From Comamonas testosteroni TK102 (lineage in GTDB: Bacteria > Pseudomonadota > Gammaproteobacteria > Burkholderiales > Burkholderiaceae_C), in the NCBI RefSeq assembly GCF_000739375.1, contig NZ_CP006704.1, positions 186,001-250,000 of the forward strand: a stretch of 64,000 nt of DNA, given 5' to 3'. A model generated the notes under the pieces. It was not told where the DNA came from and made no database searches. It saw only the letters and a list, made by a program, of their open reading frames with translations. The position numbers were made by a program, and so were the translations under genes. Of this stretch, positions 1 to 15,345 are shown one piece after another (the stretch's first letter is position 1; every line of letters starts with the position of its first letter).

Positions 1-1
1 C

Positions 2-1618
2 TGGCTCGCCGAAGCGGCCTATCGCATGATCCAGAACAACCTGGACCCGGATGTGGCCGAGAACCCCAAGGCGCTCGTCGTCTACGGCGGCATCGGCCGC
101 GCGGCTCGCAACTGGGAGTGCTATGACGAGATCCTGGCCCAGCTCAAGAAGCTCGAGGCCGACGAATCGCTGCTGATCCAGTCGGGCAAGCCGGTGGGCG
201 TGTTCAAGACCCACCCCGATGCGCCGCGCGTGCTGCTGGCCAACTCCAATCTGGTGCCCAAGTGGGCCAACTGGGAGAAGTTCAACGAGCTCGATCAGAA
301 GGGCCTGTTCATGTACGGCCAGATGACGGCCGGCAGCTGGATCTACATCGGTGCCCAGGGCATCGTGCAGGGCACCTTCGAGACCTTTGTCGAGGCCGGT
401 CGCCAGCACTACAACAACGACCTGACCGGCAAGTGGATCCTCACCGCCGGCCTGGGCGGCATGGGGGGTGCCCAGCCGCTGGCCGGCGTGCTGGCCGGCG
501 CTTGCGTGCTGGCCATCGAATGCAAGCAGTCCAGCATCGACTTCCGCCTGCGCACCCGCTATGTGGACAAGCAGGCCAAGGATATCGACGACGCTCTGGC
601 CCTGATCAAGCATCACACCGAAAAGGGCGAGGCCGTCTCCATCGCGCTGCTGGGCAATGCGGCCGAAGTCCTGCCCGAGCTGGTCAGGCGCGCCAAGGCC
701 GGCGGCATCCGTCCCGACATCGTGACCGACCAGACCTCTGCCCACGACCTGATCAACGGCTATCTGCCCGTGGGCTGGACCGTGGAGCAATGGAACGCCG
801 CTGCGGCCGACCCCGGCCAGCACCCCACGCTCAGGAAGGCCGCCGCCCAGGGTTGCGCCCAGCATGTGCAGGCCATGCTGGACTTCCAGGCCATGGGCAT
901 TCCCACGGTGGACTATGGCAACAACATCCGCCAGGTGGCCCTGGACGAAGGCGTGAAGAACGCCTTCGACTTCCCCGGCTTTGTGCCTGCCTACATCCGT
1001 CCGCTGTTCTGCGAAGGCAAGGGCCCGTTCCGCTGGGTGGCGCTGTCCGGCGATCCCGAGGACATCTACAAGACCGACGCCAAGATCAAGGAGCTGTTCC
1101 CCGAGAACAAGCACACCCACCGCTGGCTGGACATGGCCAAGGAACGCATCGCCTTCCAGGGCCTGCCATCGCGCATCTGCTGGCTGGGTCTGGGCGAGCG
1201 CCACAAGGCGGCCCTGGCCTTCAATGAAATGGTCAAGAACGGCGAACTCAAGGCGCCCATCGTGATCGGCCGCGACCACCTGGACTGCGGCTCGGTGGCC
1301 AGCCCCAACCGCGAGACCGAAGCCATGAAGGACGGCACCGATGCCGTCTCCGACTGGCCGCTGCTCAACGCCCTGCTCAACACGGCGGGCGGCGCCACCT
1401 GGGTCAGCCTGCACCACGGCGGCGGCGTGGGCATGGGTTACTCGCAACATGCCGGCGTTGTGATCGTGGCCGATGGTACGGACGAGGCTGCGGCCCGCCT
1501 GAATCGCGTGCTCTGGAACGATCCCGCCACCGGCGTGATGCGCCATGCCGATGCAGGCTACGAGATTGCCGTGCAAGCGTCCAAGCGCCATGGCTTGAAT
1601 CTGCCGATGGTGAAGTAA
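2..1618 (+). CDS. hutU: Urocanate hydratase (5' end outside window)
   Basis: Urocanate hydratase (urocanase) adds water to urocanate to give 4-imidazolone-5-propionate, the second step of histidine breakdown, in the cytoplasm with tightly bound NAD+. The frame is open from the first complete codon of the window; about 538 residues are present against a usual 555-565, so roughly 20 N-terminal residues lie to the left. The family sequence is continuous, including [13 protein letters not shown] near the start, [10 protein letters not shown] in the NAD-binding region, and the Gly-rich [13 protein letters not shown] near the C-terminus. The run of six G inside GMGGA is read in frame here. It is followed downstream by hutD, hutI, hutF and hutG, so it belongs to the hut cluster. 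hutH and any hutC repressor must lie outside. The internal ATG at 26 should not be used as the start. Confidence 0.97.
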
Positions 1619-1789: not shown

Positions 1790-2356
1790 ATGCAACGCTT
1801 TGACCTGAACCAGATTGCGCCCAGCCCGTGGAAGAACGGGGGCGGCAGCACGCGCGAGATTGCCTGCTGGCCGCAGGGCGCGGGCATGGACAGCTTTGGC
1901 TGGCGCGTGAGCGTGGCCACGATTGCCCAGGCCGGCCCGTTTTCGGCATTCCCGGGCATAGACCGCCAGATCATGCTGCTCGATGGCGACGGGGTGCGGC
2001 TGCACAGCGTCCAGGGCCAGGTCGAGCACGCATTGACCGATCGCTGGCAGCCCTTCGCCTTTTCGGGCGATACGGCTCTCGATTGCGATCTGCAGGGCGG
2101 GCCGTCCAGCGATTTCAATGTCATGACCCGGCGTGGACAATGGTCGGCACGGCTGGAGCTGCTCGCCGGCCAGGCCGAGGTGGGGCTGAGCGCTGCAGGA
2201 CTTTGCATGGTGCTGCAGGGCAGCTGGAAAGCTGCCGACGGCCGGGTGCTGGAGACCGGTCAGGGCCTGTGGTGGAGCAGTACCGGGGCCGAGTCGCTGG
2301 TGGCGCAAGGCGAGGATGCCAGACTGATCCTGGTCAGCCTGACAGCGCACACCTGA
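1790..2356 (+). CDS. hutD: HutD family protein
   Basis: HutD is a small cupin-fold protein found with histidine utilisation genes in proteobacteria. Its biochemical role is not settled; a regulatory or ceiling-setting role in hut expression has been proposed for Pseudomonas HutD. The 188-residue product fits the family length and begins MQRFDLNQIAPSPWKNGGGS. The motif PWKNGGG..TREIA is characteristic of the family, and the central FSAFPGIDRQIMLLDGDG segment is also typical. No strong ribosome-binding sequence precedes the ATG. It sits 171 bases after hutU and 139 before hutI on the same strand, consistent with cotranscription. Confidence 0.9.
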   Translation: MQRFDLNQIAPSPWKNGGGSTREIACWPQGAGMDSFGWRVSVATIAQAGPFSAFPGIDRQIMLLDGDGVRLHSVQGQVEHALTDRWQPFAFSGDTALDCDLQGGPSSDFNVMTRRGQWSARLELLAGQAEVGLSAAGLCMVLQGSWKAADGRVLETGQGLWWSSTGAESLVAQGEDARLILVSLTAHT

Positions 2357-2495
2357 AACAGGAGCAGCTTGCGCCTATGTACCGGACACTTCAATGAAGA
2401 TTGATCTGAAAAGTTAAAAGGGGCAGGCGCTGGTAGCTATGAAATCAGGAGTTTCATGGCCTGGATTGTCGTCATCGAACACGAGGAGCATCGCC

Positions 2496-3758
2496 ATGGC
2501 GCAAGCTAATCCCCATCCCGCAGTCTCCGCCGACGGCTGCTGGCACAACCTGCGTCTGGCGCCGGAGCTGTATGTCTCCGAGGTGGCGGATATTCCCGAA
2601 GGCACGCTGGCCTGCATCGTGGTGCAGCAAGGCCGCATGGTCTGGGTGGGACCGCAGCATGCCATGCCTGCCGAATACCAGGCGCTGCCCAGGCACGACG
2701 GCGCAGGGCGCCTGGCCACGCCGGGCCTGATCGACTGCCACACCCATCTGGTCTATGGCAGCGAGCGCGCCAACGAGTTCGCGATGCGCCTGGCCGGTGC
2801 CAGCTACGAAGAAGTGGCCCGGGCCGGCGGCGGCATCGTCTCTAGCGTCAGGGCCACGCGCGAAGCGTCGGAGGACGAGCTGGTGGCGCTGGCGCTGCCG
2901 CGTCTTGAACAGTTGCTGGCCGAGGGCGTGACGGCCATAGAGATCAAGTCGGGCTACGGCCTGGCCCTGGAACACGAGCGCAAGCAGCTGCGTGCCGCAC
3001 GGCGCCTGGGCGAGCTGTGTGCCGTGACCGTGCGCACCACCTTTTTAGGGGCCCATGCGCTGCCGCCAGAGTATGCTGGCCGCAGCCAGGAATACACGGA
3101 TCTGGTCTGTCAGGTCATGCTGCCGGCGCTGGCCGCCGAAGGCCTGATCGATGCCGTGGACGTGTTCTGCGAACGCATCGCCTTCTCGCTGGCCGAGACC
3201 GAGCAGGTCTTCGAAGCGGCCAAGGCCTTGGGCCTGCCCGTCAAGCTGCATGCCGAGCAGCTGTCGAATATGGAGGGTGCCGCCCTCGCGGCCCGCTATG
3301 GCGCCCTGTCATGCGACCATATCGAGCACCTGTCCGAGCACGGCATCACCGAGATGAAGAAGGCCGGTACCGTGGCCGTGCTGCTGCCCGGGGCCTTCTA
3401 CACGCTGCGCGACACCAAAGTGCCGCCCATTGAAGGTTTAAGAGCTGCCAAGGTCCCGATGGCCGTTTCTACCGATCACAATCCGGGTACCTCCCCGTGC
3501 TTGAGCTTGCTGCTCATGGCCAATATGGCTTGCACGCTGTTCCGTCTGACGGTTCCCGAGGCTCTGGCCGGCATCACCCGGCACGCTGCGCATGCTCTGG
3601 GCCTGCAGGACGAGCAAGGCCTGATTGCCGTGGGCCGTCCCGCCAATTTCGTGCTCTGGCCCGTGCAGCGGGCTGCAGAGCTGGCCTACTGGTTTGGCAG
3701 CAAGCCTGACTGTACGGTGGTGCGCCAGGGCCGGATTGCGCAGCAAGCCAAAGCCTGA
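2496..3758 (+). CDS. hutI: Imidazolonepropionase
   Basis: This cytoplasmic metal-dependent amidohydrolase opens the ring of 4-imidazolone-5-propionate to give N-formimidoyl-L-glutamate, the third step of histidine degradation. The product is 420 residues, a normal length. The metal-binding HxH is in [19 protein letters not shown], and later family segments KLHAEQLSN and STDHNPGT supply further metal and substrate ligands. I chose the ATG at 2496 because GAGGAG lies seven bases upstream (2483-2488). An in-frame ATG at 2439 would add 19 unlike residues and overlaps a small inverted repeat (ATGAAA-N7-TTTCAT, 2439-2457). It is followed after 24 bases by the dehydrogenase gene. Confidence 0.96.
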
Positions 3759-3782
3759 AGCGGGGAGCGCGAAAGGTTGCTG

Positions 3783-5171
3783 ATGTCTCACGAACAATTT
3801 CTCAATGAACTGATTTCCACCCTGGGCGCCGATGTGGCGCTGCGCGGCAATGACACGCCGGAGCGTAGCCGCACCGACTGGAGCGGCACGCCGCCCCAGC
3901 AACCGCTGGCGCTGGTGCGCCCACGCACCACGGAGGAAGTCAGCGCCGTCATGCGTCTGTGCAGCGCCCACAGGATTGCGGTGGTTCCGCAGGGTGGACT
4001 GACCGGGCTGGCCGGTGCCGCAGTCCCTACGGAGGGCGCTGTCGCGCTGTCGCTGGATCGCATGAACCGCATCGAGGACATCGATGCCCAGACCGGGTTG
4101 ATGCAGGTGCAGGCCGGCGTCACCCTGCAAGCCGTGCAGGAGGCGGCCGTGGATGTCGGCATGGTGTTCGGCGTGGATCTCGGCGCTCGCGGCAGCTGCC
4201 AGATCGGCGGCAATGTCTCCACCAACGCGGGCGGCAACGGCGTGCTGCAGCACGGCATGATGCGCGAGCAGGTGCTGGGCCTGGAGGTGGTGCTGGCCGA
4301 CGGCACGGTGCTGCCCATGCTGCGCCCCATGATCAAGAACAACACGGGTTACGACCTCAAGCAGTTCTTCATCGGTGCCGAAGGCACGCTGGGCATCATC
4401 ACGCGCGTGCTGCTGCGCCTGCGTCCTGCGCCGCAGGCCACGGCCACGACGCTGGTGGCCATGCCCGATTTCGACTCGGCGCTGGCCGTGCTCAAGCGCA
4501 TGCAATCGCACTTCGGCAACAGCGTCGCGGCCTATGAGCTGATGTGGGACAGCTTTGTGCAGGCCTCCATGGCCTGGCTCAAGCTCGCTGCGCCTTTTGA
4601 ACAGCGTTACCCCTTGCTGGCCCTGATCAATGTGGACGGCAAGGACGAGGCGCAGTTGCAAGGCGATGTGCAGCAGGTGCTCGAGGAGGCCATGGAGGCC
4701 GGCGAGGTGCTCGATGCCATCGTGGCCCAGTCGGTCGCCCAGGTACAGCAGCTGTGGAAGCTGCGCGAGGCACCTGCCGAGCTCAACAGCAATATGCATC
4801 CCGCGATCAACTTCGATGTGAGCCTGCCCCAGGCCGACATCGGCCGTTTTGCCGAGGCCTGCATGCAGGCCTTTGCCACTCGCTGGCCCGCTCACCAGGC
4901 GCTGTACTTCGGCCATGTGGGCGACGGCAACCTCCATGTCTCGGTGGATGGCAAGACCGTCAACGGCGAATGCGAGCAGGTGGAGGCGCTTCTCTACCGC
5001 ATCGTGGGCGAGATGCAGGGCAGCGTCTCCGCGGAGCACGGCATCGGCCTGCACAAAAAGCCCTATCTGGGCAACAGCCGCACGCCCGCAGAGCTGGCGG
5101 CGATGCGGGCCATCAAGCTGGCCCTCGATCCCATGGGCCTGATGAATCCCGGAAAGGTGTTTGATCTATGA
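3783..5171 (+). CDS. FAD-linked 2-hydroxyacid dehydrogenase (GlcD/D-2-hydroxyglutarate type)
   Basis: The product (462 residues) belongs to the vanillyl-alcohol-oxidase flavoprotein group that oxidises D-2-hydroxyacids such as D-lactate, glycolate or D-2-hydroxyglutarate. The N-terminal half carries the FAD-binding segment with PQGGLTGLAGAAVPT (about residues 63-77) and GGNVSTNAGGNGVLQHG. The C-terminal half ends with the family signature GHVGDGNLHV and EHGIGLHKK, which bind metal and substrate. The ATG at 3783 is preferred over a TTG six bases earlier because AAAGG stands six bases before it. Its last four bases overlap hisC (ATGA), so the two are translationally coupled. Its position inside the hut cluster suggests an imidazole-containing hydroxyacid such as imidazole-lactate as substrate, but the sequence does not prove this. 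Confidence 0.87.
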   Translation: MSHEQFLNELISTLGADVALRGNDTPERSRTDWSGTPPQQPLALVRPRTTEEVSAVMRLCSAHRIAVVPQGGLTGLAGAAVPTEGAVALSLDRMNRIEDIDAQTGLMQVQAGVTLQAVQEAAVDVGMVFGVDLGARGSCQIGGNVSTNAGGNGVLQHGMMREQVLGLEVVLADGTVLPMLRPMIKNNTGYDLKQFFIGAEGTLGIITRVLLRLRPAPQATATTLVAMPDFDSALAVLKRMQSHFGNSVAAYELMWDSFVQASMAWLKLAAPFEQRYPLLALINVDGKDEAQLQGDVQQVLEEAMEAGEVLDAIVAQSVAQVQQLWKLREAPAELNSNMHPAINFDVSLPQADIGRFAEACMQAFATRWPAHQALYFGHVGDGNLHVSVDGKTVNGECEQVEALLYRIVGEMQGSVSAEHGIGLHKKPYLGNSRTPAELAAMRAIKLALDPMGLMNPGKVFDL

Positions 5172-6328
5172 CGAATTCCCTGGTGGCCTCGCTGGCCCGC
5201 GCCCAGGTGCGCCCGCTGCCCGCGTACAACGCCGGCCTGTCCAATGAAGCGGTGCGGGCGCGCTATGGCGTGACCGATATCGCGCGACTGGCCAGCAATG
5301 AAAATCCCTTCGGTGCCAGCGCCTCGGTGCGCCGGGCGATTGCCGAGGTGGCCAACGATGTGGGCAACTATCCGGATGCCAACTGCACGGCCTTGCGCGA
5401 AGCCATTGCCGAGCGCACCGGGCTGCCCGCCGGGCGTCTGGTGTTCGGCGACGGCTCGGAAGACCTGATCAAGATTCTCTGCGAGGTCTTTCTCGCCCCC
5501 GGCGATCTGGTGGTGACCCAGCGTCCCGTGTTCGGCCTGCACGAAATCTATCCAAAGATGATGGGCGCGGAGGTCGAGCTCCTCGAGCTGAACGAGGAGC
5601 TGGGCTTCGATCTGGGCGCCTGGTGCGCTGCCGTGGCCAAGGCCCCCAAGATCGCCTTCCTGCCCAACCCGTCCAACCCCGTGGGCTGCATGATGGATGC
5701 GGCGCAGTTTGCAAAGGTGCTGGAGGCCACGCCCGCCAACACCGTGCTGGTGGTGGATGAGGCCTATTACGAATACGCGCTGCATGACGATGACTATCCC
5801 GATGTGCTGGCCATGCTGGATGCGCGGGTCGGGCCCTGGATCGTGCTGCGCACCTTCTCCAAGGCCTGGGGCCTGGCCGGTCTGCGCGTGGGCTACGGCA
5901 TGGCCGACAGCGCCGAGCTGGTGAGCCTGATGGACAAGGTGCGCTCGCCCTTCAACGTGAACATGGCGGCCCAGCGCGCGGCGCTGGCGGCCTGGAACGA
6001 TCCTGCGCACATGCGCAGCGGCGTGGCGACCACGGTGGCGCTGCGCGAGGATCTGCGCAGACAGCTGCTGGCGCTGGCAGGGCCGGGCCAGCCGCTGCAA
6101 GGCCTGCGCATTGCGCCTTCGGTAGCCAACTTCCTGTTTCTCGACCTGGGCCGTCCCAATGCACCGGTGACGGAGGCGCTGCTCAGACAGGGCGTGATCG
6201 TCAAGCCCTGGAAGGAGCCCGGTTTCGAGAATTTTCTGCGCGTATCCATAGGTACCGAGAAGGACAACGCGCGTTTTGTTCTGGCTTTGCTCGCTGCGAT
6301 GGAGCAGACTGAGCGCGTGACTGCATGA
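5168..6328 (+). CDS. hisC: Histidinol-phosphate aminotransferase-type enzyme (HisC)
   Basis: This fold-type I PLP aminotransferase of the HisC family (386 residues) normally transfers an amino group between glutamate and imidazole-acetol phosphate in histidine biosynthesis; many paralogues act on aromatic amino acids or histidine. The PLP lysine is in RTFSKAWGLAGLRVGYG; LASNENPFG near residue 41 and LPNPSNPVG are family motifs. The start overlaps the stop of the upstream dehydrogenase by four bases. No other his biosynthetic gene is adjacent, while hutI and hutF flank the pair. A catabolic histidine/imidazolepyruvate transaminase role is therefore as plausible as biosynthesis. The family call is firm, the substrate open. 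Confidence 0.88.
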   Translation: MTNSLVASLARAQVRPLPAYNAGLSNEAVRARYGVTDIARLASNENPFGASASVRRAIAEVANDVGNYPDANCTALREAIAERTGLPAGRLVFGDGSEDLIKILCEVFLAPGDLVVTQRPVFGLHEIYPKMMGAEVELLELNEELGFDLGAWCAAVAKAPKIAFLPNPSNPVGCMMDAAQFAKVLEATPANTVLVVDEAYYEYALHDDDYPDVLAMLDARVGPWIVLRTFSKAWGLAGLRVGYGMADSAELVSLMDKVRSPFNVNMAAQRAALAAWNDPAHMRSGVATTVALREDLRRQLLALAGPGQPLQGLRIAPSVANFLFLDLGRPNAPVTEALLRQGVIVKPWKEPGFENFLRVSIGTEKDNARFVLALLAAMEQTERVTA

Positions 6329-6370
6329 GCTGCGCGGTTTGATCTTTTCCGCCTCATAGAGACCATCACC

Positions 6371-7795
6371 ATGACTGCATCCTCATCCATTTCGCGTACC
6401 TTGTTTGCCGCAGACGCCTTGCTGCCCACGGGTTGGGCGCGCAATGTCCTGCTGAGCTGGAACGAGAGCGGCCAGCTGACCGAAGTGCTGACCGATGTGG
6501 ACCCGCAAAGCGGCGAGGCCGGGGAGGCGGAGGACGCCGCCAAGGCGGCCGGCCCGCTGATCCCGGGCATGCCCAATCTGCACTCGCACGCCTTCCAGCG
6601 CGCGTTCGGCGGGTTGACCGAATTTCGCGGTCAGGCGCAGGACAGCTTCTGGAGCTGGCGCAAGCTGATGTACGGCTTTGCCAATCGCATGACGCCCGAG
6701 GCGCTGGAGGCGATTGCGACCTGGCTGTACCTGGAGATGCTGGAGGCGGGCTATACCTCGGTGTGCGAGTTCCACTATGTGCACCATGATGCCGGTGGCA
6801 AGCCCTATGCCAACGATGCCAGCCTGTCGCTGGCGCTGCTGCGCGCGGCGCAGAAGACCGGCATCGGCATGACCTTGCTGCCCGTGCTCTATCAGACCAG
6901 CGGCTTCGGGGGCCTGCCGCCTCGCGAGGACCAGGCCCGTTTCATCCGCAGCACGGACAGCATGCTCTGCCTGCTGCAGCAGCTGGAGCCCGTGACCAGG
7001 GCGCAGCAGGCAGCTCTGGGCCTGGCTCCGCACTCGCTGCGCGCCGTGCCGCCGGACAGCCTGAAGACCGCGCTCGCAGGCCTGCACGCCCTGCTGCCCA
7101 AGGCTCCGGTGCACATCCATATCGCAGAGCAGACCCAGGAGGTGGATGACTGCCTGGCCTGGAGCGGTCAGCGCCCCGTGCAATGGCTGCTCGACCATGC
7201 TCCCGTCGATGCGCGCTGGTGCCTGATCCATGCCACGCACATGACGCCCGAGGAATATGCTGGCGCGGCACGCAGCGCGGCCGTTGCCGGCATCTGTCCC
7301 ACCACCGAAGCCAATCTCGGCGACGGCATCTTCGACATGCCGCTGTGGCTCAGGCATGGCGGCCGCTGGGGCATTGGCTCGGACAGCCATGCTTCGGTGA
7401 ATGCCGCCGAAGAGCTGCTGATGCTCGAATACAGCCAGCGCCTGAGCTTGCGCCAGCGCAATGTGCTTGGCGGCGGCGCCCAGCCCCAGGTGGCGACCTC
7501 CATGACCTTGCAGGCGGTGGCCGGCGGTGCCCAGGCGTCGGGCCGCGCCATTGCCGGTCTGGCCGTGGGCCAGCAGGCCGACTTCGTGGTGCTCGATGCC
7601 CGCCATGTGGCCCTCAACGGGCTGCCTGCCGACAGCGGTCATGCGGCCCATGTGTTTGCCAGCCATCGCACTTCGGCCATTGCCGAAGTCTGGGTTCGCG
7701 GCCAGCAGCGCGTGCAGGCAGGCCGTCATGCGCTGCACGAAGTCGCTCAGCAAGGCTTTGTGCAGACCCGCAAGGCATTGCTGCAGAACGCCTGA
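6371..7795 (+). CDS. hutF: Formimidoylglutamate deiminase
   Basis: HutF deaminates N-formimidoyl-L-glutamate to N-formyl-L-glutamate and ammonia, step four of the five-step hut pathway. It is a cytoplasmic Zn-dependent amidohydrolase. The 474-residue product carries the metal HxH in GMPNLHSHAFQRAFGGLTE, then HIHIAEQTQEVDDC, CLIHATHMT and WGIGSDSHASVNAAEELL, which give the remaining His and Asp ligands in the expected order. Presence of hutF with hutG, and no formiminoglutamase gene, shows that this strain uses the formylglutamate branch. The gene lies 42 bases after hisC and 41 before hutG. Confidence 0.96.
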   Translation: MTASSSISRTLFAADALLPTGWARNVLLSWNESGQLTEVLTDVDPQSGEAGEAEDAAKAAGPLIPGMPNLHSHAFQRAFGGLTEFRGQAQDSFWSWRKLMYGFANRMTPEALEAIATWLYLEMLEAGYTSVCEFHYVHHDAGGKPYANDASLSLALLRAAQKTGIGMTLLPVLYQTSGFGGLPPREDQARFIRSTDSMLCLLQQLEPVTRAQQAALGLAPHSLRAVPPDSLKTALAGLHALLPKAPVHIHIAEQTQEVDDCLAWSGQRPVQWLLDHAPVDARWCLIHATHMTPEEYAGAARSAAVAGICPTTEANLGDGIFDMPLWLRHGGRWGIGSDSHASVNAAEELLMLEYSQRLSLRQRNVLGGGAQPQVATSMTLQAVAGGAQASGRAIAGLAVGQQADFVVLDARHVALNGLPADSGHAAHVFASHRTSAIAEVWVRGQQRVQAGRHALHEVAQQGFVQTRKALLQNA

Positions 7796-7836
7796 GGGCG
7801 GCTGCATTCAGATTTTTGACAGAAGAGAGACGCTCC

Positions 7837-8652
7837 ATGAGCCAAGCCATCGCCCCCTTTGTCTTTCACCAGGGTACGGCACCGCTGCTGATTTCCATGC
7901 CGCATACCGGCACCCATGTGCCGGCCGACATTGCGGCCAAGCTCACGCCCGAAGGGCGCGAAGTCCATGACACCGACTGGCACATGCCGCAGCTCTACGA
8001 CTTCGCCAAGGCACTGGGCGCATCCATTCTGGCTGCCACGCATTCGCGCTATGTCATCGATCTGAACCGTCCGCCCGATGGTGCCAGCCTCTATCCGGGC
8101 CAGAGTGTGACCGGGCTGTGCCCGGTTGACGGCTTTGACAGCAAGCCTCTCTATGCCAGCAAGGACCTGGAGCCCGACGAGGCGGAAGTCGCGCGCCGTC
8201 GCGAACTCTACTGGCAGCCCTATCATGCGCAGCTGCGCGCCGAGCTCGATCGCATCAAGAGCCAGCATGGCGTGGCCATGCTGTGGGATGCGCACAGCAT
8301 CCGCTCGGTGCTGCCGCGCTTTTTCGAGGGCAAGCTGCCCGACCTGAACCTGGGCACCGCCGACGGCAAGAGCTGCGCGCCGGCGCTGGCCCAGCAGCTG
8401 CTGGACATTGCACGGCAGGCACCGGACCACACCAGCGTGCTCAATGGCCGCTTCAAGGGCGGTTTCATCACGCGCAACTATGGTCAGCCGGAGCAGGGCT
8501 TCCACGCCGTGCAGCTGGAGATGACGCAGTCCAGCTATATGCAGGAGCAGATGCCATTCGACTACCTGCCCGAGGTTGCGGCCCGCATCCAGCCCACCAT
8601 GCAGCGTCTGCTGCAGGCCGTGCTGGCCTTCGCCCAAGCCAGCGGCCGCTGA
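7837..8652 (+). CDS. hutG: N-formylglutamate deformylase
   Basis: HutG hydrolyses N-formyl-L-glutamate to glutamate and formate, the last step of the pathway. The 271-residue product is normal for the family. It shows LLISMPHTGTHVP near the N-terminus, the VHDTDWHMPQLY segment, IDLNRPPDG, and MLWDAHSIRS, which carry metal and substrate ligands in this family. The ATG at 7837 is preceded by AGAAGAGAGA. The reading frame is open far upstream inside hutF, but that extension has no family similarity. It converges on soxR with only seven bases between the stop codons. Confidence 0.96.
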   Translation: MSQAIAPFVFHQGTAPLLISMPHTGTHVPADIAAKLTPEGREVHDTDWHMPQLYDFAKALGASILAATHSRYVIDLNRPPDGASLYPGQSVTGLCPVDGFDSKPLYASKDLEPDEAEVARRRELYWQPYHAQLRAELDRIKSQHGVAMLWDAHSIRSVLPRFFEGKLPDLNLGTADGKSCAPALAQQLLDIARQAPDHTSVLNGRFKGGFITRNYGQPEQGFHAVQLEMTQSSYMQEQMPFDYLPEVAARIQPTMQRLLQAVLAFAQASGR

Positions 8653-8674
8653 GCCGAGGCTAGTGGCCCTCGGC
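8653..8674. terminator. Possible shared hairpin between hutG and soxR
   Basis: GCCGAGG at 8653-8659 can pair with CCTCGGC at 8668-8674 around an eight-base loop. It lies directly after the hutG stop and overlaps the end of soxR. There is no T-run on either strand, so termination efficiency is doubtful. Confidence 0.35.
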
Positions 8675-9130
8675 CTGCAGCTCGTCGCCTAGCCAGCGGC
8701 GCGGCCCCGGGCCGCCACGCTGGCATTGGTCGCCGGGGTTGTACATGCTGCAGACCTTGAGCGACAGACAGCCGCAGCCTATGCACTGGTTGAGGCTGTC
8801 GCGCAGGCGCTGCAGCTCGTCGATGCGCTCGTCCAGCCGCTGCTGCCAGATGCGCGACATCTTCTGCCAGTCGCCGCCCGTGGGCACATGCCGCGTCGGC
8901 AGCCGCGCCAGCTGCGCGGCGATCTCCTCCAGCGTGAAGCCCACGCGCTGCGCAAACACGATGTAGGCGATGCGCCGCAGGCCCGAACGGTGGTAGCGCC
9001 GCCTTCCGCTGCTGCTTCGCACCGATTCGATCAGACCCAGCGACTCGTAGTAGCGCAATGCCGATGCGTTGACGCCGCTGCGCTGGGCGAAGTCGCTGAT
9101 GCTCATCAGCGGATCATCCTCAATTTTCAT
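8660..9130 (-). CDS. soxR: Redox-sensitive transcriptional activator SoxR
   Basis: SoxR is a MerR-family dimeric regulator whose [2Fe-2S] cluster is oxidised by redox-cycling compounds and then activates promoters with an over-long spacer. The 156-residue product has the N-terminal winged helix (ISDFAQRSGVNASALRYYE, residues 11-29), a dimerisation helix, and the cluster ligands C116, C119, C121 and C127 in CIGCGCLSLKVC, exactly the CX2CXCX5C spacing of SoxR. The start at 9130 has GGAGAAAG just upstream. Outside enteric bacteria SoxR usually controls efflux and redox enzymes directly rather than soxS, and here the divergent neighbour is an RND pump. Confidence 0.96.
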   Translation of the reverse strand: MKIEDDPLMSISDFAQRSGVNASALRYYESLGLIESVRSSSGRRRYHRSGLRRIAYIVFAQRVGFTLEEIAAQLARLPTRHVPTGGDWQKMSRIWQQRLDERIDELQRLRDSLNQCIGCGCLSLKVCSMYNPGDQCQRGGPGPRRWLGDELQAEGH

Positions 9131-9148
9131 GATGTCTTTCTCCGGAGC

Positions 9149-9179
9149 TTGACTTCAAGTTAACTTGAACTTGAAGAAT
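9149..9179 (+). promoter_or_regulatory. SoxR operator within a long-spacer promoter
   Basis: A perfect 16-base palindrome, TTCAAGTTAACTTGAA (9154-9169), matches the core of known SoxR boxes (CTCAAGTTAACTTGAG type). On the plus strand it lies between TTGACT (9149-9154) and AAGAAT (9174-9179), a 19-base spacer typical of MerR-family activated promoters. It lies 24 bases upstream of the soxR start, and the same site could govern soxR on the minus strand and the efflux operon on the plus strand. Confidence 0.85.
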
Positions 9180-9253
9180 GCCGCCATTGTGATCGATAGC
9201 CGGTGGAGCCGCAATCAACGGCCCATGCGCTGGTCGGAGTTCTTCTGCTATTC

Positions 9254-9333
9254 ATAGCTGCATCCGCTTGATGAAAAATGATTTCAGGTGGTTTTATGCC
9301 TGAAGTCGTTTATTAAAAAGCGATAGCAGCTAT
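9254..9333. repeat. AGCTGC/GCAGCT-type intergenic hairpin repeat
   Basis: ATAGCTGCATCCGCTT (9254-9269) pairs with AAGCGATAGCAGCTAT (9318-9333) through two arms with a three-base internal mismatch. A smaller inner hairpin, TTCAGG (9283-9288) with CCTGAA (9299-9304), sits in the loop. The element is AT-rich compared with its surroundings and resembles elements at 33739, 40378 and 48028. It lies between the SoxR-type promoter and the efflux operon, in the only long gap (9131-9471) of this region, so it would be in the 5' leader. Confidence 0.65.
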
Positions 9334-9471
9334 CTTTATTGAATCTCTTCCAGCCACCTGCCAATGCTTGTCACAAGCATGGCCGCTCCTGCGTCTTATC
9401 GGCAGAGGCGGTCGTTCCGTCAGGCCTGCTGCCGCCAGCAGGGCGGGCGCATTCATTCAGGGAGAGTCCAT

Positions 9472-10662
9472 ATGTCAGTCCATTCCACGCCGCCGCTGCG
9501 GCCCTTGCTGCTGGCCGGCGGCCTCGCGGCGCTGGTCCTGCTTTCAGGCTGCGGCCGTCCCGGCGCGGGCGATGCCCATGCCGGCAACGGCCCGCCGCCC
9601 GCGCCCGAGGTGCAGGTGGCCGAGGTCGCCTTGCAGGCCATACGCCCCTGGGACGAGTTCAACGGCCGCATCGAGGCCGTGGAGTCGGTGCAGCTGCGCT
9701 CACGCGTGTCGGGCTATGTCGAGCGCATCGCCTTCGCCGAAGGCCAGGAGGTGAAGAAAGGCCAGCTGCTGTTCGTGATCGACCCGCGGCCTTACCGCGC
9801 GGCCCTGGCCAGCGCCCAGGCCCAGCTCGAACGCGCGCGTGCCGCTGCCGGGCTGGCGCAGACGCAGGACCAGCGCGCGCGCCAGCTGGTGGCCGAGAAT
9901 GCGGTCTCGCGCGAGGAGGCCGACACGCGGGCCGCAACGCTGGCCCAGGCCACGGCCCAGGTACGTGCGGCAGAGGCCGAGCTGGCCACCGCACGGCTGC
10001 AGCTCGACTTCACCGAGGTGCGTGCGCCCATCACGGGCCGTGCCAGCCGCGCCCTGCTCACCGTGGGCAACATGGCCCAGGCCGACCAGAGCGTGCTGAC
10101 CACCCTGGTCTCGCAGGACCCGGTGTATGTGTATTTCGATGCCGACGAGCACAGCTTTCTGCGCTACCAGAAAGCCGGCCTGAGCGGCCCTGGCCGCGCG
10201 GTGCGTGTCGCCCTGGTCGGCGACAGCGGCTTTGCCCATGCGGGCACGCTGGACTTCAGCGACAACCAGCTCCAGCCGGGCACGGGCACCATGCGTTTGC
10301 GCGCGCGCCTGGCCAACCCCGACCGGATGCTGACGCCGGGCCTGTTCGCACGCGTGCAGATGCAAAGCGGCCCGCAGCGGCAGGAGGCCGAGCCCCAGGC
10401 GCTGCTGATCGACGACAAGGCCGTGCTCACCGACCAGGACCGCAAGTACGTCTATGTGGTGGGCGAAGGCAATCTTGCCGAGCGCCGCGACCTTACGCTG
10501 GGGCGCATGGTCGATGGCCGGCGCCTGGTGGAAAAAGGCCTGGCAGCGGGTGACCGGCTGGTGGTGGGCGGCGTACAGCGCATCTACTACCCCGGCATGC
10601 CCGTCAATCCCAGGCCGGTGGCATCGGCGGCCGCGCAGCCCGTGCCCGCCGCTGCGCAGTAA
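9472..10662 (+). CDS. RND efflux periplasmic adaptor lipoprotein
   Basis: This is a membrane-fusion protein that links an inner-membrane RND pump to an outer-membrane channel. The 396-residue product starts with a signal and lipobox (VLLSGC, Cys27), indicating lipid anchoring to the inner membrane facing the periplasm. It continues with the biotinyl-lipoyl segment (LRSRVSGYVERIAFAEGQEVKKGQLLFVIDP is the recognisable region, about residues 77-106), an Ala-rich coiled-coil hairpin, LDFTEVRAPITGRASRA, and beta-barrel domains. The ATG at 9472 follows GGGAGAG (9460-9466). The frame is open upstream to 9364 but that part lacks a signal peptide pattern. It is the first gene of a three-gene operon likely controlled by the SoxR operator upstream. 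Confidence 0.93.
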   Translation: MSVHSTPPLRPLLLAGGLAALVLLSGCGRPGAGDAHAGNGPPPAPEVQVAEVALQAIRPWDEFNGRIEAVESVQLRSRVSGYVERIAFAEGQEVKKGQLLFVIDPRPYRAALASAQAQLERARAAAGLAQTQDQRARQLVAENAVSREEADTRAATLAQATAQVRAAEAELATARLQLDFTEVRAPITGRASRALLTVGNMAQADQSVLTTLVSQDPVYVYFDADEHSFLRYQKAGLSGPGRAVRVALVGDSGFAHAGTLDFSDNQLQPGTGTMRLRARLANPDRMLTPGLFARVQMQSGPQRQEAEPQALLIDDKAVLTDQDRKYVYVVGEGNLAERRDLTLGRMVDGRRLVEKGLAAGDRLVVGGVQRIYYPGMPVNPRPVASAAAQPVPAAAQ

Positions 10663-10673
10663 GGGGGAGTGCC

Positions 10674-13600
10674 ATGGACTTCTCCAAATTCTTCATAGAC
10701 CGGCCCATTTTTGCGGTCGTGCTCTCCATCATCATGTTCGCCGTGGGCTTGGTCGCGATTCCGCAGCTACCCGTGGGCGAGTACCCCGAGGTCGTGCCGC
10801 CCAGCGTGGTGGTGCGCGCCACCTATCCAGGGGCCAATCCCAAGGAGGTCGCCGAGTCGGTGGCCGTGCCGCTGGAGGAAGCCATCAACGGGGTCGAAGG
10901 CCTGATGTACATGAAGTCGGTCGCGGCTTCGGACGGCAGCCTGCAGGTGGTTGCCACCTTCCGCCCCGAGATCGACCCAGACACCGCTGCCGTGCGCGTG
11001 CAGAACCGTGTCAGCCAGGCCCAGAGCCGGCTGCCCGAGGAGGTGCGGCAGTTCGGCGTGACCACGCAGAAGCAGGCGTCCACGCCGCTGATGTACGTGG
11101 GTCTGGTGTCTCGGGACGGCGCGCATGATGCGCTGTATCTGCGCAACCATGTCACGCTCAAGATCAAGGATGTGCTGGCGCGCATTCCCGGCGTGGGCGA
11201 CGTGGGCATCTACGGCGCAGGCGACTATGCGATGCGCGTCTGGCTGGACCCGCACAAGGTGGCGGCACGCCAGCTCACGGCCGGCGAGGTGATCGCCGCC
11301 ATCCGCGAGCAGAACATCCAGGTCTCGGCCGGCCAGCTGGGCGCCGAGCCCAGTGCGCAGAAGTCCGACAAGCTGCTGTCCATCAATGTGCGCGGGCGGC
11401 TGAAGACGGCCGAGGAGTTCGGCGACATCGTGCTCAAGAGCGGCGAAGGCGGTCAGGTCGTGCGTCTGGCCGACGTGGCGCGCATCGAGCTGGGCGCCAG
11501 CGACTACACGCTGCGCTCGTGGAGCGACACCAAGAACATGGCTGCCGTGGGCATCTTCCTGTCGCCGGGCGCGAATGCGCTGGGCGTGGCCGAGCAGGTC
11601 TACGCGGCCATGGACCGGCTCTCCAAGGACCTGCCCGAAGGCGTGGCCTTCGAATCCGTCTGGGACCCCACGGTCTTTGTGCGCGACTCGATCAAGGCCG
11701 TGCAGAGCACACTGATCGAGGCCGTGATCCTGGTGGTGCTGGTGGTCATCGTCTTTCTGCAGACCTGGCGCGCCTCCATCATTCCGCTGCTGGCTGTGCC
11801 CGTGTCCATCATCGGCACTTTCGCGGGCCTGTACCTGCTGGGCTATTCCATCAACACGCTGACGCTGTTCGGCCTGGTGCTGGCGATCGGCATCGTGGTG
11901 GACGACGCCATCGTCGTGGTCGAGAACGTGGAGCGCTACATCGAGCAGGGCCACAGCCCGCAGGAGGCGGCCCATCTGGCCATGAAGGAGGTCTCCGGGC
12001 CCATCATCGCCATCGCCCTGGTGCTGTGCGCGGTCTTCGTTCCCATGGCCTTTCTCAGCGGCGTCACGGGCCAGTTCTACCAGCAGTTCGCGGTGACCAT
12101 CGCCATCTCCACGGTGATCTCGGCCATCAACTCGCTGACCCTGTCGCCGGCGCTGGCGGCCAGGCTGCTGCAGCCGCACGGCGCACCGCGCGACGCGCTG
12201 GCACGCGTCATCGACAAGGGCATGGGCTGGTTCTTCCGGCCCTTCAACCGCTTCTTCGATCGCAGCGCCCAGGGCTACCAGAACTCGGTGGGACGCTCGC
12301 TGCGTCGACGTGGCCTGGTGTTCGCGGTCTATGCGGCACTGCTGGCCGGCACCGCCGTGCTGTTCCATGCCGTGCCCGGGGGCTTCATCCCCATGCAGGA
12401 CAAGCTCTACCTGTTTGCCGGCGCCAAGCTGCCCGAGGGCGCGTCGCTGAACCGTACCGATGCGCTCACGCGCCAGATGGTGGAGACGGCCAAGAGCGTG
12501 GATGGCGTGGACATGGTCGCCGCCTTCGCGGGCTTCAATGCGCTGCAGTCCACGACCACGCCCAATCTGAGCAGCTCCTACATCATGCTCAAGCCCTTCG
12601 GCGAGCGCACACGAAGCGCCGAGGCCATCAATGCCGAGCTGGGCGCCAAGTTCGCGCAGATCGAGGGCGGTTTCGCCTATGCGCTGATGCCGCCGCCCAT
12701 CCAGGGCCTTGGCAACGGATCGGGTTATTCGCTGTTCCTGCAGGACCGCGCAGGCCTGGGCTATGCAGCGCTGCAGCAGGCGCTTGAGGCCTTTCAGGCC
12801 GAGATTGCCAAGACACCGGGCATGACCTATCCGGTCAGCAGCTACCAGTCCAACATCCCGCAGCTGGAAGTGAAGGTGGACCGCATCAAGGCCAAGGCCC
12901 AGGGTGTGGCGCTGACCGACCTGTTCCAGACCCTGCAGGCCTATCTGGGCTCGGTCTACGTCAACGACTTCAACGCCTTCGGCCGCGTCTGGCGCGTGAT
13001 GCTGCAGGCCGATGCCGACTACCGGCAGGCCGTGGAGGACATCGCCCAGCTGCGCACGCGCAACGCGCGCGGCGAGATGGTGCCCATAGGCTCCATGGTC
13101 ACCGTGGTGCCCAGCTACGGACCCGATCCGGTGCTGCGCTACAACGGCTTTCCGGCCGCCGACCTGATCGGCGACTCCGATCCGCGCCTGCTGTCCTCGG
13201 CCGAGGTGCTGACCAAGCTGCAGGAGATCGCGCAGCGCACGCTGCCGCGCGGCATCGAGCTGGCCTGGACGGATCTGAGCTACCAGCAGGTCGAGCAGAG
13301 CCATGCCGCAGCCGTGGTCTTCGTGATCGCCGTGATGCTGGTGTTTCTGGTGCTGGCCGCGCTCTACGAGAGCTGGACCCTGCCGCTGGCCGTGATCCTG
13401 ATCGTGCCTGTGTGCATCTGCGCGGCGCTGTTCGGCGTATGGCTGGCAGGGGGGGACAACAATGTCTTCGTGCAGGTGGGCCTGGTGGTGCTCATGGGAC
13501 TGGCCTGCAAGAACGCGATTTTGATCGTCGAGTTCGCACGCGAGCTGGAGATGCGCGGTTCGGCAACAGTCGATGCCGCGCTGCAGGCCTGCCGTTTGCG

Positions 13601-13868
13601 GCTGCGACCCATCGTCATGACTTCCATCGCCTTCATTGCGGGCGCCGTGCCCTTGCTGATCGGCAGCGGCGCGGGCAGCGAGGTGCGGGCGGCCACGGGC
13701 GTGACGGTGTTCTCGGGAATGCTAGGCGTGACCTTGTTCGGCCTCTTCCTCACGCCGGTGTTCTACGTCACGCTGCGCCGTCTGTCGGGCCGTTCGCTGG
13801 CGGCTCGCACGACCGCCCAGCCGGCCTCTGCTGTGTCACCCGCATCCCTGGAGGGCAGCCATGTCTGA
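10674..13868 (+). CDS. RND family multidrug efflux transporter (HAE1 type)
   Basis: This proton-driven inner-membrane pump (1064 residues) of the hydrophobe/amphiphile efflux-1 family exports drugs, dyes or redox-active metabolites as a trimer. It begins MDFSKFFIDRPIFAVVLSII, the standard first transmembrane helix, and contains two large periplasmic loops. The proton-relay pair DD lies in VLAIGIVVDDAIVVVENVERY on TM4 and the relay lysine in LVVLMGLACKNAILIVEFA on TM10. A seven-G run near 13449-13455 is read in frame as Gly-Gly. It begins 11 bases after the adaptor gene and overlaps the outer-membrane gene by eight bases. It resembles MexF and MexI groups; which is closer needs alignment. Confidence 0.95.
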   Translation: MDFSKFFIDRPIFAVVLSIIMFAVGLVAIPQLPVGEYPEVVPPSVVVRATYPGANPKEVAESVAVPLEEAINGVEGLMYMKSVAASDGSLQVVATFRPEIDPDTAAVRVQNRVSQAQSRLPEEVRQFGVTTQKQASTPLMYVGLVSRDGAHDALYLRNHVTLKIKDVLARIPGVGDVGIYGAGDYAMRVWLDPHKVAARQLTAGEVIAAIREQNIQVSAGQLGAEPSAQKSDKLLSINVRGRLKTAEEFGDIVLKSGEGGQVVRLADVARIELGASDYTLRSWSDTKNMAAVGIFLSPGANALGVAEQVYAAMDRLSKDLPEGVAFESVWDPTVFVRDSIKAVQSTLIEAVILVVLVVIVFLQTWRASIIPLLAVPVSIIGTFAGLYLLGYSINTLTLFGLVLAIGIVVDDAIVVVENVERYIEQGHSPQEAAHLAMKEVSGPIIAIALVLCAVFVPMAFLSGVTGQFYQQFAVTIAISTVISAINSLTLSPALAARLLQPHGAPRDALARVIDKGMGWFFRPFNRFFDRSAQGYQNSVGRSLRRRGLVFAVYAALLAGTAVLFHAVPGGFIPMQDKLYLFAGAKLPEGASLNRTDALTRQMVETAKSVDGVDMVAAFAGFNALQSTTTPNLSSSYIMLKPFGERTRSAEAINAELGAKFAQIEGGFAYALMPPPIQGLGNGSGYSLFLQDRAGLGYAALQQALEAFQAEIAKTPGMTYPVSSYQSNIPQLEVKVDRIKAKAQGVALTDLFQTLQAYLGSVYVNDFNAFGRVWRVMLQADADYRQAVEDIAQLRTRNARGEMVPIGSMVTVVPSYGPDPVLRYNGFPAADLIGDSDPRLLSSAEVLTKLQEIAQRTLPRGIELAWTDLSYQQVEQSHAAAVVFVIAVMLVFLVLAALYESWTLPLAVILIVPVCICAALFGVWLAGGDNNVFVQVGLVVLMGLACKNAILIVEFARELEMRGSATVDAALQACRLRLRPIVMTSIAFIAGAVPLLIGSGAGSEVRAATGVTVFSGMLGVTLFGLFLTPVFYVTLRRLSGRSLAARTTAQPASAVSPASLEGSHV

Positions 13869-15345
13869 TATCTGCAAACCCTTGCGCCGGCATGCACTGG
13901 CATGTGCCGTGGCGGGCCTTTCGGCCTTGCTGGCAGGCTGCGCCGTCGGCCCCGATTTCCGCGCACCCGAGCCGCCCCCAGCCGGCGCGCAGTTCGCGCG
14001 GGCCGAGCCGTCTGCAGTCCCGCAGCAGGTATTCCCCGAGACCGGTTCCGATGCGGCGTTCTGGCGCCAGTTCCAGGATGGGCAACTGACGCAGCTGGTC
14101 GAGCAGGCCCTGCGGGCCAACCAGGAGCTGCGCGGTGCACTGGCGCGACTCGATGCGGCCCAGGCCCTGCTGGGAGAAAGCCGTCTTGATCAGTTCCCCA
14201 CGCTCACCTTGTCGGGTCAGGCGCTGCAGCAACGACGCAGCGAAAGCCAGGCACCAAGCGGGACACCAAGCGGGCCGCGCAGCCAGCGCAGCTACAGCGT
14301 CGGCATCAACGCGAGTTGGGAGCTGGACCTGTTCGGTCGTGTGCGTCGCAACATCGAGGCCGGCAGCGCCGACCTGCGCGCCAGTGCCGCCGACCTGGCC
14401 GCGCTGCAGGTCGCCATTGCGGCCCAGGTCGCGGCCGGCTACGCCGATCTGCGCGGCTGGCAGCAGCGCCTGCATCTGGCCGAGGCCAATGCCGCGAATC
14501 AGCAGGACACGCTGCGCCTGGTGCAGCTGCGGCTGGCGCACGGCAGCGGCACCGACTTCGACCTGGCGCGCGCCCAGGCGCAGCTGGAGAGCACGCGCTC
14601 GCGCATTCCGGCGCTGCAGGCCCGGATCGCCGTGGCCCAGCACCGGCTGGCCGTGCTCACCGGCCAGGTGCCCGAGGCTCTGATCGCGGCGCTGGACGTG
14701 CCGGCGGCATTGCCGCAGTTGCCAGAGAGCATCGCTCCCGGCACGCCCGCCGAGCTGTTGCGCCGTCGCCCCGATGTGGCCGCCGCCGAGGCGCGTCTGC
14801 ATGCCGCCACGGCGCGGGTGGGCGTGGCCACGGCAGAGCTGTTCCCGCGCCTGTCGCTGGGCGGTCTGCTGGGCAGCTCCGCCCTTGGCGCGGGCGCGCT
14901 GTTCGAGGCCGGCAGCGCGAGCCGCAGCGTGTTCCTGGGTGTGGACTGGTCTTTTCTCGACGTGGGCCGCGTGCGCGCGCGCATCGCTGCCAGCGAGGCC
15001 GGTGCCCAGATCGCCCTGGCCCAGTACCAGCAAAGCGTGCTGCAGGCACTGGAGGACACCGAGAACGCCCTGGTGGGTCTGGCGCGCACCCGCACCGAGG
15101 ATGCCCATCTGGCCCAGGCCGCCGAGCAGCGAGCACGGGCCGAGCAGCTCGCGCAGCGCCGCTACCGCCTGGGCAGCGTGGGCCTGTACGAGGTGCTGGA
15201 CGCGCAGCGCGACCTCTACGCGGCCCAGGACGCTGCGGCCGACAGCCGCGTGCGTGGCCTGCGCGCCGCCGTGGCGCTGTATCAGGCGCTGGCTGGCGGC
15301 TGGGAGGGGCAGCCACCGGCCAGGCCTATGATGGCGTTGCAATGA
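13861..15345 (+). CDS. Outer-membrane efflux lipoprotein (NodT/OprM family)
   Basis: This TolC-like outer-membrane factor forms the exit duct of the tripartite pump. The 494-residue product has a lipoprotein signal with LLAGC (Cys27) followed by AVGPDFRAPEPP, the usual start of NodT-family mature proteins. Two repeated outer-membrane-factor halves follow, with ASWELDLFGRVRRNIEAGSA in the first and RRRPDVAAAEARLHAATA in the second, both family signatures. It overlaps the pump gene by eight bases and ends in an ATGA overlap with alkB. Confidence 0.94.
   Translation: MSDICKPLRRHALACAVAGLSALLAGCAVGPDFRAPEPPPAGAQFARAEPSAVPQQVFPETGSDAAFWRQFQDGQLTQLVEQALRANQELRGALARLDAAQALLGESRLDQFPTLTLSGQALQQRRSESQAPSGTPSGPRSQRSYSVGINASWELDLFGRVRRNIEAGSADLRASAADLAALQVAIAAQVAAGYADLRGWQQRLHLAEANAANQQDTLRLVQLRLAHGSGTDFDLARAQAQLESTRSRIPALQARIAVAQHRLAVLTGQVPEALIAALDVPAALPQLPESIAPGTPAELLRRRPDVAAAEARLHAATARVGVATAELFPRLSLGGLLGSSALGAGALFEAGSASRSVFLGVDWSFLDVGRVRARIAASEAGAQIALAQYQQSVLQALEDTENALVGLARTRTEDAHLAQAAEQRARAEQLAQRRYRLGSVGLYEVLDAQRDLYAAQDAAADSRVRGLRAAVALYQALAGGWEGQPPARPMMALQ

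Follow-up and report, generated by a model that had tools for sequence, protein, structure and literature searches.

The 64,000 nt window analysed here is positions 186,001 to 250,000 of contig NZ_CP006704.1 of Comamonas testosteroni TK102 (assembly GCF_000739375.1). It opens within hutU and carries, on the + strand, the gene order hutU-hutD-hutI-FAD-DH-AT-hutF-hutG, where FAD-DH is used throughout for the gene or protein of a flavin adenine dinucleotide (FAD)-linked D-2-hydroxyacid dehydrogenase and AT for the gene or protein of a HisC-like aminotransferase. We give a little better than an even chance to the reading that this pair forms a branch that feeds the hut pathway, leading from D-imidazole-lactate to histidine, the two enzymes together probably turning imidazole-lactate into histidine. 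The observations behind this reading are the gene order, the family membership and conserved catalytic residues of the proteins, the pocket of the clade to which AT belongs, and the recurrence of this clade beside hut genes and beside 2-hydroxyacid dehydrogenases of several kinds. An earlier note on this DNA had placed an FAD-linked dehydrogenase and a HisC-type aminotransferase, joined by an ATGA overlap, between hutI and hutF, which is exact to the base, and had proposed that they feed imidazole-lactate into histidine. Overall that interpretation is partly supported: it is strengthened for AT by the hut linkage, pocket and dehydrogenase neighbours of this gene, and for FAD-DH, which is found more broadly than hutU and beside hutG, it is plausible but contested. 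It should be stated for the D-isomer.

A linkage of AT to hut genes far beyond C. testosteroni TK102, recurrently beside 2-hydroxyacid dehydrogenases of more than one family, is supported by a comparison of 116 loci with an AT-like gene (130 loci, those of the first search of the genome itself excluded, minus 14 recognised duplicates). Leaving out the window, these were classed by alignment on the residue at position 103 of Mycobacterium tuberculosis HspAT, which is Glu in 54 loci and Asp or Asn in 62. Leu129, His130 and Lys337 accompany Glu in all 54, whereas among the 62 others His130 and Lys337 are never found and Leu129 occurs twice. Of the 54 Glu loci, 46 contain at least one hut gene or a regulator of HutC type (counted from 33 % identity over 100 residues to the window's regulator), or 41 if regulators are not counted, versus none of the 62. 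In 37 of the 54, the strand that carries AT also has a 2-hydroxyacid dehydrogenase no more than 300 bp away (35 of FAD type and two of flavin mononucleotide (FMN) type), again versus none of the 62, the 54 being a set in which many loci were fetched via FAD-DH, some span just 4 kb, close relatives of the window dominate and the plasmid records were hand-picked from a list. Grouping at 97 % AT identity gives 47 groups, 39 with hut context and 30 with an adjacent dehydrogenase. In a scan made with AT only, hut genes or regulators were seen in 15 of 18 clade loci, or in 13 with regulators left aside, and an adjacent dehydrogenase in 11 of the 18, each versus none of 62.

The database name of AT points elsewhere. 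The protein contains the Pfam domain Aminotran_1_2 (1.4e-53) and scores 610.2 bits against NCBIfam NF003496 'histidinol-phosphate transaminase' (cut-off 540), its plasmid homologues are annotated hisC, and three members of its clade (in loci L021, L023 and L024) pass the cut-off of TIGR01141 (hisC), which AT itself narrowly misses (271.2 bits, cut-off 276.55). Its nearest named relatives, among the matches listed, are from a Comamonas sp. metagenome-assembled genome (MAG; 99 %) and C. testosteroni JL40 (95 %). That AT is, in keeping with this name, a second and redundant histidinol-phosphate aminotransferase for histidine biosynthesis nevertheless seems improbable. The genome, a single contig of 6.06 Mb, has another hisC (290.5 bits against TIGR01141) that is 27 % identical to AT and has hisD, hisH and hisA within 9 kb on the same strand. 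Biosynthesis thus has a candidate other than AT, a sole biosynthetic hisC being one of the refutations that the earlier note had named. The hut context of 46 of the 54 clade loci also argues against a biosynthetic role, and hisD was found beside clade members in four of the loci read (L022, L182, L183 and L185), three of them with hutC.

The pocket of AT differs from that of HspAT in the same sense. Substrate-contacting residues of M. tuberculosis HspAT and ArAT were taken from passages of PMC4703992, AT was aligned to ArAT structure 4r2n, in which the chain numbering is one ahead of the published numbering, and HspAT numbers were carried over via ArAT and motifs rather than by direct alignment to HspAT. 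On this scale AT has Glu (HspAT Asn103/ArAT Val86), Phe (Tyr127/Phe110), Leu (Met129/Leu112), Phe (Tyr261/Phe246), Lys (Arg337/Arg322) and Arg (Arg346/Arg330). The HisC set Asn103/Tyr127/Met129/Tyr261/Arg337 is therefore replaced by E, F, L, F and K, and the Phe, Leu and Phe residues match the aromatic enzyme ArAT. As Phe127 and Lys337 are also present in the genome's own HisC, both were dropped as discriminators. In HspAT, Asn103 contacts the ring/amino group of histidinol phosphate according to the same passages. The AT pocket thus appears to be of the aromatic-amino-acid type with an acid at the ring site, as would fit a free imidazole amino acid, and AT is likely to be a histidine/imidazolepyruvate transaminase.

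FAD-DH contains the Pfam domains FAD_binding_4 (1.3e-39) and FAD-oxidase_C (8.4e-53), and the residues for metal, carboxylate and hydroxyl binding (R386, H434, H441, E475 and H476) are conserved in every one of the 60 sequences aligned, among them two reference structures. Domains and residues together identify an FAD-linked D-2-hydroxyacid dehydrogenase. The closest solved structures are 3pm9 and then human D2HGDH (6lpn), the closest that is characterised (E 6e-87), and this resemblance raises the question of whether FAD-DH oxidises D-2-hydroxyglutarate and so disposes of by-products of glutamate metabolism. We consider this very improbable, because the residues that hold the D-2-hydroxyglutarate side chain (T390/K401/Y432/N443) are A/N/F/S in the window, A/N/F/S or A/N/F/T in 52 of 53 distinct orthologues and T/N/F/T in the other, Lys401 being replaced by Asn in all 53, while two paralogues in the same genome retain both Lys401 and Asn443. 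Mutation of Lys401 in human D2HGDH abolishes activity on D-2-hydroxyglutarate, and D2HGDH and LDHD of this family accept D- and not L-isomers, as passages of PMC7801405 (both points) and PMC10589216 (the second) report. From its sequence, FAD-DH is assigned to the D-2-hydroxyacid dehydrogenases by family, is not predicted to be a D-2-hydroxyglutarate dehydrogenase, and has a putatively neutral side-chain pocket. That its main substrate here is imidazole-lactate is a prediction with about an even chance.

In the route that we infer, FAD-DH would oxidise a D-2-hydroxyacid, most likely D-imidazole-lactate (the D-stereochemistry being taken from the family), to imidazolepyruvate, and the electrons would pass from FAD to the respiratory chain, which would make this step effectively one-way. 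AT would convert imidazolepyruvate and glutamate to L-histidine and 2-oxoglutarate, and HutH-U-I-F-G would take histidine to glutamate and formate; as one glutamate would come back per hut round, the amino donor could be regenerated. Transamination is reversible, and the pair could in principle run as a reverse branch that takes surplus histidine to imidazolepyruvate and on to imidazole-lactate. This direction is hardly credible, as flavin-linked 2-hydroxyacid dehydrogenases run oxidatively and HutH of the same cluster already removes histidine.

To place the pair in its genus, 53 genomes were surveyed with E-value limits of 1e-130 for FAD-DH, 1e-200 for hutU and 1e-80 for AT, which gave matches in 41, 28 and 22 genomes, respectively. 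All 22 genomes with AT have FAD-DH (p = 5e-4) and 19 of them have hutU (p = 4e-5), both values being uncorrected for phylogeny. The pair is retained in hut clusters of Comamonas, Delftia, Acidovorax and Hylemonella and in one of two Variovorax loci, and the ratio of nonsynonymous to synonymous substitution (dN/dS) is 0.07-0.10 for FAD-DH and likewise for AT (two close pairs per gene). By its retention in hut clusters and low dN/dS, the pairing exceeds chance. The conservation of the gene pair within hut clusters, which the earlier note had named as a check, was thus found in several genera, but FAD-DH also occurs without hutU and AT without FAD-DH.

A number of findings weigh against the feeder reading, and most of them concern FAD-DH. 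Across the genus it is commoner than hutU, 17 genomes having FAD-DH and no hutU match and four having hutU and no FAD-DH match, and in this survey the association between the two is not significant (24 of 28 hutU genomes, p = 0.11). The gene string of FAD-DH includes hutG in 27 of the 30 genomes of the genus with long loci (one further genome could not be judged and ten were represented by short loci alone), AT often being absent, and in genomes G335, G355 and G330 the hutU-bearing hut cluster is located apart from FAD-DH. Purifying selection also acts on FAD-DH copies that lie outside hut clusters: dN/dS is 0.04-0.07 in three pairs, and in just one of these, L156/L165, are both genomes without hutU. 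The pocket residues of such copies are unchanged save Ser/Thr. The same pocket Asn is found in 49 % identical relatives on Sinorhizobium and Shinella plasmids with no hut genes in the annotated stretch and hence, with the Asn shared by relatives in other settings, the pocket alone is no proof of imidazole. In wider samples the genes are infrequent, with AT 6, FAD-DH 5 and hutU 38 in the order (n=200), and AT 8, FAD-DH 13 and hutU 61 in the family (n=120). No adjacent dehydrogenase is present in 17 of the 54 loci of the AT clade, including the full hut clusters L111 and L112 (genomes of the same family), L028 and L029 (MAGs) and L030 (Actibacterium), as well as L020, L022 and L026, where the setting is without hut enzymes. 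E. coli is reported, in a passage of PMC6096522 that names no such cluster, to convert imidazolepyruvate to histidine, and a dedicated AT is therefore not strictly needed. Finally, the titles of the older enzymological papers name an NAD(P) (nicotinamide adenine dinucleotide, with or without phosphate) enzyme and the L-isomer, and FAD-DH is a flavoprotein with D-specificity in the relatives that have been studied.

Because genomes without a hutU match keep FAD-DH and because it is under purifying selection outside hut clusters, FAD-DH must have a use without hut, and the FAD-DH half of the reading is for this reason rated below the AT half. In such genomes it either takes imidazole-lactate to histidine for growth via a general transaminase, or has a different or broader substrate. 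Six of the 17 genomes without a hutU match have FAD-hutG alone and seven have an ABC (ATP-binding cassette)-hutD-hutF-hutG-FAD cluster. FAD, AT and hutG remain together in two more, hutG is missing beside FAD in another, and in the last a contig edge falls inside hut. A genome-wide search for hutH covered eight genomes (it was not found in G090, G309 and G290), and hutI was sought within loci alone. The 13 genomes of the two main arrangements, which have no AT, and the selected non-hut copies with their nearly unchanged pocket favour an alternative in which FAD-DH serves another D-2-hydroxyacid, at the HutF/HutG glutamate/formate end or in general metabolism, and shares the operon of AT and not its pathway, AT alone being the histidine/imidazolepyruvate transaminase. 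We regard this as unlikely, though a serious contender, since every AT genome of the genus carries FAD-DH and AT adjoins other 2-hydroxyacid dehydrogenases in distant hut loci; the feeder branch from D-imidazole-lactate is the reading that we retain.

Clusters of an ABC transporter with hutD, hutF, hutG and FAD-DH, and with no hutH, hutU, hutI or AT in the locus, were seen in L154, L155, L156, L163-L166, L169 and L107, and look like a utilisation unit for formimidoylglutamate or formylglutamate. In L155 the SBP_bac_3 and IclR genes were checked, and G330, the source of L169, has hutU and AT elsewhere in the genome. The FAD-DH match lies in two adjacent pieces in G202 (L109 11850-13183) and one TGA is reported in that of G324 (G324:C2:159980-161362), possibly through decay or assembly error. 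In G335 and G355 the FAD-linked hutG is nearer to the window's hutG (91 and 89 %) than the hut-cluster copy is (80 and 78 %). A hutG tree places the FAD-linked copies with the window's gene and joins the separate copies of the hut clusters to the one from G350 (L149). The idea of a separate lineage of FAD-linked hutG was dropped, as the tree was read without a species tree, and that of FAD-DH and AT as an inseparable pair was rejected on the genus survey, in which FAD-DH is broader and sited by hutG.

The recurring theme is a hydroxyacid or alcohol dehydrogenase together with this AT near hut-type genes, and the identity of the dehydrogenase varies. In relatives of the window the partner is FAD-DH, arranged hutI-FAD-AT-hutF-hutG or hutG-FAD-AT. 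Acetobacter, Komagataeibacter and Leisingera have in its place a distant FAD enzyme (32-34 % identical to FAD-DH, 48-65 % mutually) with a motif that we read as LDHD-like, and Komagataeibacter has, besides the FAD enzyme next to AT, an FMN_dh enzyme next to hutH. Aureimonas has a third FAD enzyme (39 %) beside AT, in the neighbourhood of hutC, hutH and an ABC transporter for amino acids. An FMN enzyme adjoins AT in L021 (Martelella). FMN_dh enzymes act on L-2-hydroxyacids. On one plasmid each of Sinorhizobium, Shinella and Agrobacterium, AT and a short-chain dehydrogenase gene are transcribed away from each other, and the clusters also contain hutC and hisD. Clade members accompanied by hisD (L182, L183 and L185, which also have hutC, and L022), in rhizobia and Celerinatantimonas, suggest a feeder for histidinol or a related imidazole. 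A 2OG-Fe(II) oxygenase gene (DIOX_N and 2OG-FeII_Oxy) adjoins FAD/AT in one genome of the Burkholderiales (L101 12624-13592), and another is near FAD/AT in Acetobacter (L023 11141-12100).

The Klebsiella pneumoniae plasmid pKPN-0c4e, the sole enterobacterial record of which the surroundings were read, has the cluster hutG-I-C / F-D-ABC-H-U-'hisC'-alpha-hydroxy acid oxidase-FeADH (L187, NZ_CP026182.1 17000-38500). Its AT is 52 % identical to that of the window, and the oxidase, an FMN_dh protein (PF01070), overlaps AT by 4 bases and has a translation that begins with V, the start codon not being ATG. The stretch of AT and oxidase is present in 28 of 5,426 E. coli genomes (22 at >=80% length) and all 29 of its places are on plasmids. 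Homologues of AT were found in 150 of 72,556 plasmid records, 62 of the 150 being from Klebsiella, Escherichia or Enterobacter. A wider and tentative reading, to which we give a chance just short of even, is that a clade of 'hisC'-labelled AT (Glu103/Leu129/His130/Lys337) and interchangeable flavin dehydrogenases form a widespread, unrecognised module that would bring both enantiomers of imidazole-lactate to hut (D via FAD and L via FMN enzymes), that its AT is a gene for EC (Enzyme Commission number) 2.6.1.38, and that it travels on enterobacterial plasmids and would give hosts such as E. coli the use of histidine and imidazole-lactate. The signature of pocket and context would allow the catabolic genes among those labelled 'hisC' to be predicted by sequence. 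Both enantiomers of imidazole-lactate are described, in passages of PMC12583827, as microbial-derived metabolites that dampen urease, and the feeder predicts that bacteria can consume imidazole-lactate.

The features of the locus are listed in the table. The reading frame of FAD-DH runs from an ATG at 3783 (the list of open reading frames has it from an upstream in-frame TTG at 3777) to the TGA at 5169-5171, and that of AT from an ATG at 5168 to a final base at 6328, giving an overlap of 4 bases. The gap between hutI and FAD-DH is 24 bp and that between AT and hutF 42 bp, and no terminator-like sites were found in 3400-8800. On the 5' side of the window lie an NMT1/NitT-type ABC transporter, hutC, hutH, a second HutC-type regulator (- strand) and a Transp_cyt_pur permease, so that hutH, hutU, hutI, hutF, hutG, hutC and hutD are all together in one hut cluster; both regulators are GntR/UTRA proteins of the HutC type, and hutH was named by its sequence and by matching genes of other hut loci.

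Table. Features of the hut locus, in window coordinates
Feature	Position	Strand	Basis or remark
hutU, urocanate hydratase; 5' end before window	1..1618	+	NCBIfam
hutD	1790..2356	+	Pfam PF05962
hutI, imidazolonepropionase	2439..3758	+	NCBIfam; internal ATG at 2496 may be true start
FAD-DH, 462 aa, predicted D-imidazole-lactate dehydrogenase	3783..5171	+	Pfam FAD_binding_4 and FAD-oxidase_C; conserved site residues
AT, HisC-like class I aminotransferase, 386 aa, predicted imidazolepyruvate/histidine aminotransferase	5168..6328	+	NF003496, pocket residues
ATGA start/stop overlap of FAD-DH and AT	5168..5171	+	bases CT-ATG-ACG
hutF, formimidoylglutamate deiminase	6371..7795	+	NCBIfam
hutG, N-formylglutamate deformylase; glutamate source, possible amino donor	7837..8652	+	NCBIfam

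In one hut cluster (L093 1933-2667, 8996-12247), a Transp_cyt_pur permease is accompanied by two regulators of HutC type, one of which is on the - strand, and by a third GntR/UTRA regulator with a homologue that adjoins FAD-DH in G090, G324, G335, G355 and G360. On the 3' side of hutG (window 8660-16016) are a MerR-like regulator, an RND adaptor, pump and outer-membrane factor, and then an alkB-like gene, all named by reading the sequence. The alkB-like gene adjoins FAD-hutG in several relatives that lack the RND set.

The earlier note had pointed to enzymology on growth with imidazolyl-lactate in this species, and papers with such titles exist: the 1969 title of Coote & Hassall, on Pseudomonas (now Delftia) acidovorans, names an imidazol-5-yl-lactate NAD(P) oxidoreductase, and their 1973 title names P. 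(now Comamonas) testosteroni and imidazolyl-L-lactate. The dehydrogenase of the 1969 title is NAD(P)-linked, and FAD-DH, which belongs to an FAD-binding family by Pfam, is therefore not that oxidoreductase. The reaction of EC 2.6.1.38 is known in D. acidovorans, as stated in a passage of PMC6567437, and the hut cluster of D. acidovorans NBRC 14950 (L015) holds the FAD-DH/AT pair, a match with that organism at species level. Though the earlier note had held that no gene was tied to this activity, one, TTE2137, had been proposed and assayed as a histidine transaminase, and is disputed, in a reviewer reply in PMC4084501, as a biosynthetic hisC, on the grounds that transaminases are promiscuous in vitro and that the gene is within a his operon. 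The his-operon objection does not apply to the present AT, and the objection of promiscuity would apply to any assay of an AT. Besides TTE2137, no gene assignment was found among the matches listed in the open-licence PMC literature on imidazole-lactate, hut and the EC numbers. From its sequence, AT makes a strong candidate for histidine transaminase, the gene of which is in dispute, and the proposal would give a gene to EC 2.6.1.38, an activity that was treated as an orphan in 2014 in PMC4084501.

Compared by titles, the system of Coote & Hassall was described in the same or close organisms as the pair in the window and shares with it the predicted transamination of an imidazole-lactate route; it differs in the NAD(P)-linked dehydrogenase and, in the 1973 title, the L-lactate, whereas FAD-DH is a flavoprotein and its characterised relatives are specific for D-isomers. 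HisC (EC 2.6.1.9; TIGR01141) and AT are of the same family and share the pyridoxal phosphate lysine, and the identity of AT to the genome's own HisC is 27 %, but AT is set apart by Glu103, Leu129 and Phe261 in the pocket, a hut and not a his context, and a score just under the TIGR01141 cut-off. With human D2HGDH and mouse LDHD, FAD-DH shares the flavoprotein family and the residues R386, H434, H441, E475 and H476, and it differs in having a side-chain subsite of A/N/F/S (or T) where D2HGDH has a Lys pocket. Hut clusters L170 and L171 (hutC-H-C-U-D-I-F-G) have the same hut genes in the same order, without FAD-DH and AT between hutI and hutF. The hut cluster of pKPN-0c4e has the same AT clade, a full hut setting and a 4-base overlap with a hydroxyacid dehydrogenase, as in the window, but that dehydrogenase is FMN-dependent (PF01070) and thus of a different family from the FAD-DH of C. 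testosteroni TK102.

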